DNA of 64,000 nucleotides from Acidilobus saccharovorans 345-15 (GTDB lineage Archaea; Thermoproteota; Thermoprotei_A; Sulfolobales; Acidilobaceae): the NCBI RefSeq assembly GCF_000144915.1, contig NC_014374.1, forward strand, positions 992,001 to 1,056,000. Reading direction: 5' to 3'. Position numbers and translations under genes: made by a program. The notes below the pieces were generated by a model. That model saw nothing but the letters and a program-made list of their open reading frames with translations. It searched no databases and was not told the origin of the DNA. Each line of letters begins with the position of its first letter. Positions within the stretch are counted from its first letter, which is position 1. Shown here one piece after another: positions 11,274-53,052 of this stretch.

Positions 11274-12404
11274 ATGAGAGTAAAGATCTGGGAAGGCTCG
11301 GAGATGCAGTATCAGAAGCTCGTAAGGGCCCTACAGGCTAGTTCAAGGGCGTTGATATATATTATGATAGCCGGCCTCTTGGTGTCGCTATACATAGTCA
11401 CGGTGGGTTTGAAGATATTGCACGGAGTTATAATGTTTAGCTTAGTCGTGCCGCTTCTCATAACGGCCGTCGCCGGTCCGTATGTAGTCTCAGGCCTAAG
11501 AGCGTCGGCCAAAGCAGAGGCCTGGCTGTTATTCTCTATAGCAGCGGAGTGGCTAATTTTGGTTGCATCTATCATGACCCTACAGCTTAAGTCTTACCTT
11601 TACCTTGGGCTCTCTCTGGTAATCTTCTCCATATCTCCCATCTGGGGCGCGGCATTAACAGGCCTAAAAAGTGACGTGAAGCTCTCATACCTTATTTTGG
11701 GAACCGCGTTTCTTATCAGTGGGCTTACGCTTATGCTGCTAAAGTCGTCAGTTTTCCATGCGGCGCTCGCATTGCTCACTCTCCTAGGCCTTGGCGCTAT
11801 TTATGCCGTAACATACCACTCGCTGCCTGCTACCTTTGAAGAGAGACAGGGCCTCGCGTGGGGACTGCTGCTGGAGCTGCTGTTAATAGCAGAGGCGTTG
11901 AGCCTCCTCGCGGTAGGTTATAAGCCCTTCCTCTTAATATCAGGTGCGACGGATGTCATCTCGCTGCCCGCGTTGGGGCTAACTAAGCTGCGAAAGTTCG
12001 TAGCTGTTGCCAAGGCATCCAAGAACCCTATGGCCCGGGCTGGAGAGCTGTACTTCGTCGACGGTCATATTTTCTCTGCTGTGTTTCTGATCATCACAGG
12101 CTTAGTAACTCTCCTGGGAGGTCTAGGCCTCGACGTGCCCACGCTCGTACTCATACACCTGTTAGCACTCGGTGTACTGGTTATGTTCGTCCTTATACAC
12201 GCGCCTCTCATGTTGCCAGTTATATTGAGGTGGCCCTCGGCAAGGAGATATAACTTAACACCATATGTTCTTGAGTCAGTGGCCGCTGTCGTATGGCCTG
12301 TTAACCCTCACGTGGCGTTCTTCTTCCTTGGGCTTTCCATAGTGTTCCTAGTGTTAATAGTTAAACCGACAAAGGAGCCCCTGCCGCTGAGCCTTATAAA
12401 ATGA
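11274..12404 (+). CDS. Polytopic membrane protein of unknown function
   Basis: It is almost entirely hydrophobic, with about 10-12 predicted transmembrane helices. The later helices carry spaced histidines (YFVDGHIFSAVF, LVLIHLLALGVLV, VLIHAPLMLPVILRW), a pattern that recalls NnrS or other heme/metal-binding membrane proteins, but I cannot assign the family. A loop before them is basic (LTKLRKFVAVAKASKNP). The ATG at 11274 is used; an ATG at 11304 is also possible. No neighbour gives a functional hint beyond moaB 75 nt upstream. Confidence 0.72.
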   Translation: MRVKIWEGSEMQYQKLVRALQASSRALIYIMIAGLLVSLYIVTVGLKILHGVIMFSLVVPLLITAVAGPYVVSGLRASAKAEAWLLFSIAAEWLILVASIMTLQLKSYLYLGLSLVIFSISPIWGAALTGLKSDVKLSYLILGTAFLISGLTLMLLKSSVFHAALALLTLLGLGAIYAVTYHSLPATFEERQGLAWGLLLELLLIAEALSLLAVGYKPFLLISGATDVISLPALGLTKLRKFVAVAKASKNPMARAGELYFVDGHIFSAVFLIITGLVTLLGGLGLDVPTLVLIHLLALGVLVMFVLIHAPLMLPVILRWPSARRYNLTPYVLESVAAVVWPVNPHVAFFFLGLSIVFLVLIVKPTKEPLPLSLIK

Positions 12405-14534: not shown

Positions 14535-15641
14535 TTGAAATGCGAGTCTTATTGCCCACGCTGTGGGTTCGCCAGTGATGACATGTCACTGATGACCTGC
14601 CCACGCTGTGGGTTCGCCATGGTTTATAGGTGCCACGACGTGAAGTTCAAGATAAGGCCTAACTATGCAAACATGTGGAGGTACTCAGAAATGCTGGCGA
14701 CAAGGCCTCCTCAGGTAGTAAGCTATGGCGAGGGCCTCACCCCCATAGTTAAAGTTAACGGTGTCCTGTGCAAGCTGGAGAACAGAAACCCCACTGGGAC
14801 CTATGCAGATAGAGCTTCGTCCGTTATAGTAAGTGGTATGCGCCGCAAAACCTACAGAGTGAAGTACGAAAGCGACTTTGCCTACTCGCTTGCGTTTTAT
14901 GCAAAACTTGCGGGCTCCGAGGTATCAGTCATAGCTGAGCCCAAGGAGCTCGATCCACAGGATATCATCGGAATAGCGTCCCTTGGAGGCTCCCTGGAGT
15001 TCAGGGGAAAGCCAGAGCTACAGTACGAGAACCCTCTAAGCGTTGAAGGTCTGAAGACTATAGCTTTTGAGCTCGTCGAGAGCTCGCCAAATGCTGAGAG
15101 AGTTTATGTGCCATCATCGTCTGGCCTCTTAGCGTTCTCCATAGCTGAGGGCTTAAATGAGCTCGAAGGGGCCCCGCCTATGGAGGTTACAGCTGTTGTG
15201 GTGAAGGGTAGCCCCCTGCCGTCATTTCTGGGATTCTCGAGGACCATTAAGATCGTTGAGATAGAGCCTGAAGAGGTTATAAATGGCCTGGTAAGGTTAG
15301 CTAGAAGAGGTTTTTACATCAAGTTCCTGGCAGCCTCTGCTTATGCCTACGCGTCTACCGAGGAAAGGGGCGTGGCGCTGATAAGTGGAGGGATTAGAAA
15401 ACCTCAGCTAAAGAGACCGAAGTCCCTCGAGGGGGCCTCGCTCAAGAGAAGAATACTTGACGTGCTATCGCGCGGCGGGGACTTAAGCGCCTACGAAATA
15501 TGGAAAGAGATGCCACAGTTCACATTGAGGGGCGTGTACTCAGCTCTCAAGTCACTTGAGGCTGAGGGAAGTATATGCGCACGTTATAAGATGAGAGGAA
15601 GAAGAAAGATAAGGATCTATGAGCTTTGCGGGCCAGACTAA
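14535..15641 (+). CDS. Threonine-synthase-like pseudoenzyme with zinc ribbon and winged helix
   Basis: Residues 1-32 carry two CPRCGF knuckles plus a further Cys (YRCHD). Residues about 60-280 follow the PLP fold-type II threonine synthase pattern: YGEGLTPIVKV, then ENRNPTGTYADRAS where active enzymes have NPTGSFKDRG. The PLP-binding lysine is thus replaced by Ala91, so PLP catalysis is not expected. Residues about 300-368 form a winged helix (LKRRILDVLSRGGDLSAYEIW, YSALKSLEAEGSICARY). The simplest reading is a DNA-binding regulator whose sensor domain derives from threonine synthase, but this is inference. It starts at a TTG with GGGGTC upstream and is followed by the coiled-coil protein gene on the same strand. 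Confidence 0.75.
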   Translation: MKCESYCPRCGFASDDMSLMTCPRCGFAMVYRCHDVKFKIRPNYANMWRYSEMLATRPPQVVSYGEGLTPIVKVNGVLCKLENRNPTGTYADRASSVIVSGMRRKTYRVKYESDFAYSLAFYAKLAGSEVSVIAEPKELDPQDIIGIASLGGSLEFRGKPELQYENPLSVEGLKTIAFELVESSPNAERVYVPSSSGLLAFSIAEGLNELEGAPPMEVTAVVVKGSPLPSFLGFSRTIKIVEIEPEEVINGLVRLARRGFYIKFLAASAYAYASTEERGVALISGGIRKPQLKRPKSLEGASLKRRILDVLSRGGDLSAYEIWKEMPQFTLRGVYSALKSLEAEGSICARYKMRGRRKIRIYELCGPD

Positions 15642-52696: not shown

Positions 52697-53052
52697 GGTT
52701 CGGCCTTCGTCGTGACTAACGGTCACCTTTAATGACTGTTAGTCGCTCGGCCTCGTCACTCCTGTCCTGCTCCCCGCGCAGTCTACGGGAGCGGCTCACC
52801 TGCCACTCCCCTCGAGGACATGGGGGCTTCACTGGGCGCCTTCCTCCACCTCGCGACTGCTCGTAGACTTCACGGCGGCGCCCCCTTCTACATCATTAGA
52901 GGCAACAGCAGAGCACGTAAAATTCACGGTTTATCAGAAGCCGCTGACGACGGCACACGGCACCGGCCTACTTGATTGCATTAAGGGGATTAGAGGTAGT
53001 TAAAATAACGGGCAGTTACGTAGATGTGTTACAGGCAGCCAACTTGGCAACA
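52697..53052. ncRNA. GC-rich, highly structured noncoding region (candidate RNA)
   Basis: No ORF is supported. Inverted repeats are dense: a 12-position stem GACTAACGGTCA/TGACTGTTAGTC (52714-52744), GGGAGcGGC/GCCaCTCCC (52787-52810), a long-range AGTCTACG/CGTAGACT (52780-52787 with 52862-52869), and GGGGGC/GCCCCC (52822-52827 with 52880-52885). On the minus strand a TATA-like TTATTTTAACTA precedes it, and GGAGGAAGG is weakly reminiscent of RNase P CR-I, but I cannot confirm any known family. Strand evidence is mixed. Confidence 0.4.

Follow-up and report, generated by a model that had tools for sequence, protein, structure and literature searches.

P0001, a lysine-less protein of 368 amino acids derived from threonine synthase (ThrC), is probably an archaeal analogue of PdxR, a transcription factor which governs the supply of vitamin B6 and senses PLP or some other form of B6 without a Schiff base. 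Its gene (positions 14535..15641, plus strand, TTG start) lies in a window of 64 kb, meaning the whole stretch of DNA that was analysed, which is part of a single-contig Acidilobus genome of 1,496,453 bases (G000). Orthologs within the same genus show 63, 49 and 44% identity to P0001, and the reading frame evidently is a real, conserved gene.

Architecture and family of P0001

The protein begins with a zinc ribbon (C7-C10 and C22-C25; 14553..14609, plus strand), the cysteines of which are invariant or nearly so in the alignment. The initial annotation had described a duplicated zinc knuckle at this place, and two CxxC knuckles are indeed present, but instead of a special duplication C7xxC10...C22xxC25 forms one ordinary zinc ribbon as it is found in true archaeal ThrC. 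It is followed by the proposed threonine-synthase-like fold-type-II PLP domain (about residues 62-290; 14718..15404, plus strand), which matches Pfam PALP (PF00291) with E=4.6e-18 and thus has the PALP fold of ThrC. A full-length AlphaFold2 model also found fold-type-II PLP enzymes as top Foldseek matches; being predicted from the single sequence (pLDDT 49), it is too poor for judging the ligand pocket. What P0001 lacks is the PLP-binding lysine in the SFKDRG motif of ThrC. Alignment with active-type ThrC places Ala91 (codon 14805..14807, plus strand) in the catalytic-lysine column (NPTGTYADRA against NPTGSFKDRG), and no lysine stands next to Ala91 that could be aligned with the PLP site in its stead. 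The replacement noted before is therefore real, and it is general, as the lysine is replaced in 41/41 aligned family members and kept in all 17 ThrC compared.

The C-terminal winged helix also withstood structure prediction and fold search. Residues 300-364 (15432..15626, plus strand) form a PadR-like domain according to AlphaFold2 and Foldseek: modelled alone, residues 293-368 show the order H-E-H-H-E-E with a pLDDT of 85.9 and a pTM of 0.74, and Foldseek relates this model to LmrR/PadR (TM about 0.8), including DNA-bound PadR from B. subtilis with 37% identity over 71 columns. The fold is that of a PadR-type winged helix, whereas Pfam PadR (PF03551) gives only 16.3 bits for the isolated domain, under its gathering cut-off of 27, and P0001 differs from PadR and LmrR by the attached PLP-enzyme domain. 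The idea of a lysine-less sensor made from threonine synthase and fused to a DNA-binding domain is supported by these comparisons of sequences and models. With archaeal ThrC the protein has the zinc ribbon and the PALP fold in common; it differs in the missing PLP lysine, an altered phosphate loop, the added winged helix and its links to B6 genes.

The motif NPTGxY[A/S/T/G/I]DR marks orthologs of P0001 in three genera of its family (g1, g3 and g5). Relatives of greater length that share the architecture of zinc ribbon, ThrC-like domain and C-terminal winged helix are collected in the NCBIfam model NF004170 (PRK05638, 442 positions), which is named 'threonine synthase' and matches P0001 with E=6.7e-30 and 104 bits, below the curated cut-off of 421. 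The two types further differ in their operators and at the lysine position, with Ala in P0001 and mostly Arg in the relatives (20/22 aligned sequences, the other two having Tyr and Phe). The regulator type had been suspected to be undescribed; we found no literature on such ThrC-winged helix proteins as regulators, although few subscription journals were covered, but the fusion itself is on record under the enzyme name in NCBIfam, which is probably wrong for both NF004170 and P0001.

In an IQ-TREE phylogeny one branch with a support of 100/99 separates the 41 lysine-less fusion proteins from the 17 lysine-bearing ThrC. The tree, rebuilt without the group of G045 as its long branch had spoiled the first one, is unrooted and favours a single origin of the fusion family. 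A search of genome contigs for related loci gave bacterial ThrC-like genes only and no relatives of the fusion. With a profile, P0001-type members were detected in 29 of the 300 genomes sampled from the phylum and in 13/126 genera, these genome counts being inflated by relatedness and the genera being few, and full-length orthologs (start codons taken as the first available codon) occur in at least five families. Together with the NF004170 relatives P0001 evidently belongs to a widespread crenarchaeal family. Ile-type fusion members from family f8 (L145, L146, L149 and L157) adjoin PF07155 genes. Profile matches from families f25 and f34 (L300, L302, L303, L308, L311 and L312) have Met or Tyr at the lysine position, and in the stretches read neither pdxST nor an operator was found beside these members.

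Two putative operators and their predicted target genes

The upstream regions of genes linked to the family contain two palindromes, one for each regulator type. That of the P0001 type reads TATTGAACGTTCAATA, and its search pattern RYTGAACGTTCARY has 1-3 sites in 14/15 genomes of family f1 with a P0001-type regulator known at that stage and none in ten f1 control genomes without one (Fisher p=3e-6, relatedness of the genomes ignored), while the reversed pattern gave 0. Five control genomes (G005, G015, G030, G037 and G039) were re-checked by profile; G044 and G045 carry a divergent Arg-type member. No RYTGAACGTTCARY operator was found in G024, an f1 genome with a P0001-type regulator, and none of this type in the parts of G065 and G094 that were read. 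Several matches with three mismatches were dropped, being no commoner than with the reversed control. The sites lie 27-51 nt before the start codon throughout, except for one MFS site in G001 with an uncertain annotated start.

PLP synthase consists of two subunits, encoded by pdxS and pdxT. Both genes stand next to the P0001 ortholog in each of the six g5 genomes, in two gene orders, and RYTGAACGTTCARY precedes pdxS in five of them as well as in G010 and G013, where the palindrome is still present although regulator and pdxS are on different contigs. In other genomes the pattern is found before an MFS gene (G000, G001, G003, G011, G012 and G014), an APC permease gene (G002, G003, G012 and G014, with a degenerate site in G011) or both; one G001 site, on C11, has no clear target. 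The palindrome precedes pdxST in genomes that possess pdxST and transporters in genomes that do not.

The palindrome was also found before pdxS in f2 genomes that had no NF004170 match and were supposed to be regulator-free, and P0001-type regulators were therefore predicted there. A profile search then found them in G074, G075, G049, G104, G111, G088, G078 and G065 and, split over broken contigs, in G117. None of these f2 regulators has the PLP lysine and in seven cases they are near pdxS. Six of the genomes (G074, G065, G104, G075, G117 and G088) had been chosen by NF004170 as regulator-free controls and were discarded as such. Since in G049, G074 and G075 a partly degenerate palindrome precedes the ECF S gene too, the sites indicate that the P0001 type controls pdxST and ECF S targets alike, so that operators stand before pdxST and pdxU-type genes as they do in PdxR/MocR. 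G087 possesses both types, the P0001-type beside pdxST and the Arg-type beside ECF genes.

The usual neighbour of Arg-type members is an ECF cassette with a T-like membrane protein, a double ATPase in fused form and an S component of PF07155. PdxU and PdxU2/HmpT belong to this family (PMC9997740), and the sole significant PDB match for the S-component profile is HmpT (4hzu), whose substrate was identified as pyridoxamine (PMC4860826). As Pfam names PF07155 'riboflavin', membership in the family does not settle the substrate by itself, and an operator shared with pdxS says more about it. The Arg-type operator TAAAG-N5-ACTTWA is located 23-59 nt before 17 ECF S genes, and it is still present in six genomes with the S gene away from the regulator (G051, G056, G059, G109, G133 and G158). 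With a stricter pattern only two sites remain in the genome of G082, the first upstream of the ECF S gene and the second, at a distance of about 400 kb, upstream of pdxS, which makes this the one genome where pdxS is unlinked to the regulator and has an Arg-type site upstream. Further matches to the Arg-type pattern that fell within coding sequence were regarded as chance hits. From these sites before ECF S genes and pdxS it appears that B6 genes are the common target of two family groups which use different operators. The right half-site of the Arg-type operator runs into a TATA-like stretch (CTTTATAT), an overlap that favours repression as the putative mode of control. In G037, which is without this regulator, another palindrome (AGAAACAATTGTTTCT) is present upstream of the PF07155 gene L142 and is maybe the site of a different B6 or vitamin regulator.

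The Acidilobus genome

Both pdxS and PF07155 are absent from the Acidilobus genome, and for this reason the B6 link would rest here on the shared palindrome and a transporter of predicted substrate. The only exact RYTGAACGTTCARY site (C1:1440092-1440105) is found 37 nt before the gene of an MFS transporter (PF07690). The upstream neighbour of this target gene (locus L224, C1:1437000-1444000) encodes a class V aminotransferase with pyridoxamine-pyruvate transaminase as best match (241 bits, below the cut-off of 600), and it is a candidate B6 salvage enzyme. Its counterpart gene in G001 has its own palindrome. Acidilobus presumably relies on B6 from outside, the uptake of which P0001 would control. 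No P0001-type palindrome was found within the 64-kb window and autoregulation by this motif is therefore not indicated.

Next to the regulator gene a member of the ThermoDBP-RP family (PF10015; 15706..16218, plus strand) has no evident link to B6; both genus g1 and G013 keep it beside the regulator. Upstream, at 11274..12404 (plus strand), a protein with multiple membrane spans and no Pfam match is encoded, which in two congeners is directly coupled to the regulator gene (4-nt overlap in L071 of G001, 4-nt gap in L072 of G002) and could be B6-related. The only ThrC found in the genome is a short one (357 aa frame, with SFKDRG), and the long form seems to be absent. The window also contains a strong match to the Sulfolobus sRNA family Sso133 (Rfam; 52770-52842, minus strand).

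Signal, mechanism and relation to known regulators

According to our model the ThrC-like domain of P0001, unable to form a Schiff base with PLP, would serve as ligand sensor and most likely bind PLP or another B6 vitamer non-covalently. The ligand would alter the grip of the C-terminal winged helices, which presumably bind as a dimer, on the palindrome just upstream of the target genes. The predicted targets are pdxST if PLP is made de novo, an ECF transporter of the HmpT/PdxU type in part of the genomes and, where pdxST is missing as in Acidilobus, an MFS and/or APC transporter as putative B6 importer. Repression when PLP is plentiful is the likelier sense of control, its sign being less settled for the P0001 type than for the Arg type.

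The pocket residues differ between the two types. Arg-type proteins retain the ring-contact Asn, the Thr/Gly of LTGHG and a Gly-rich loop. In the P0001 type this Asn is replaced by Asp and the phosphate loop is a different one. Because of these changes PLP binding by P0001 is not obvious from its sequence, and the ligand could be PLP bound in another way, a non-phosphorylated vitamer or a related molecule. The much altered pocket, together with the retained zinc ribbon, would also suit a regulator of B6 genes that responds to another signal, namely a metal at the ribbon, the redox state or a partner protein. We regard this as unlikely, as the ribbon is common to ThrC in general and the Arg-type pocket is largely preserved.

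As an alternative, the pocket inherited from ThrC might recognise threonine, homoserine phosphate or some other amino acid, and the protein would then control amino acid uptake, with pdxST as a secondary target; this would agree with the ThrC ancestry and the APC permease targets. Moreover, the surroundings of both transporter targets in genus g3 (aspartate kinase and aspartate-semialdehyde dehydrogenase genes beside the APC gene, a short ThrC near the MFS gene) would suit an amino-acid regulon as well. This explanation is nevertheless quite unlikely, since under two different operators the targets met most often are pdxST and ECF genes of the HmpT type, and the swap between pdxST and transporter targets tracks the loss of pdxST. 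With vitamin B6 genes as predicted targets, PLP or a B6 vitamer is more likely as ligand of P0001 than the threonine or homoserine considered in the initial annotation. That P0001 is still an active threonine synthase to which the DNA-binding tail is accessory, as the overall fold and the name of the NF004170 relatives might suggest, is very improbable given the loss of the PLP lysine in all aligned members and a separate ThrC with SFKDRG in the same genomes. A decaying ThrC pseudogene would explain the lost catalytic residues and is negligible in view of the open frame, the full-length orthologs in several families, the invariant motifs and the matched operators.

The closest known analogues are the bacterial PdxR/MocR regulators, in which a winged helix is likewise joined to a sensor derived from a PLP enzyme. 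Their regulons include pdxST, pdxK and pdxU, and Archaea are stated to lack MocR (PMC5320631). PdxR/MocR combine an N-terminal GntR-type winged helix with a fold-type-I aminotransferase-like domain; P0001, in contrast, is archaeal, has a fold-type-II domain from ThrC without the PLP lysine and carries a PadR-like winged helix at the C-terminus. A described archaeal regulator of vitamin B6 genes was not found in the literature. On balance we lean towards archaeal B6-responsive factors that arose from fold-type-II ThrC independently of MocR/PdxR, sense PLP without a Schiff base and point to two unrecognised families of B6 transporters (MFS and APC) where PLP is not made.

If true, Archaea would have invented independently the MocR/PdxR trick of turning a PLP enzyme into a switch for the PLP level, using another fold and after losing the very lysine that MocR-type regulators use. 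The database name 'threonine synthase' of NF004170 would be corrected, and the P0001 family would be a first candidate for the control of archaeal B6 metabolism. B6 transporters are still mysterious in most species (PMC9997740), and the MFS and APC targets would be concrete candidates for them. With a 16-bp operator, named targets and B6 vitamers as ligands, the predictions made here might be tested cheaply.
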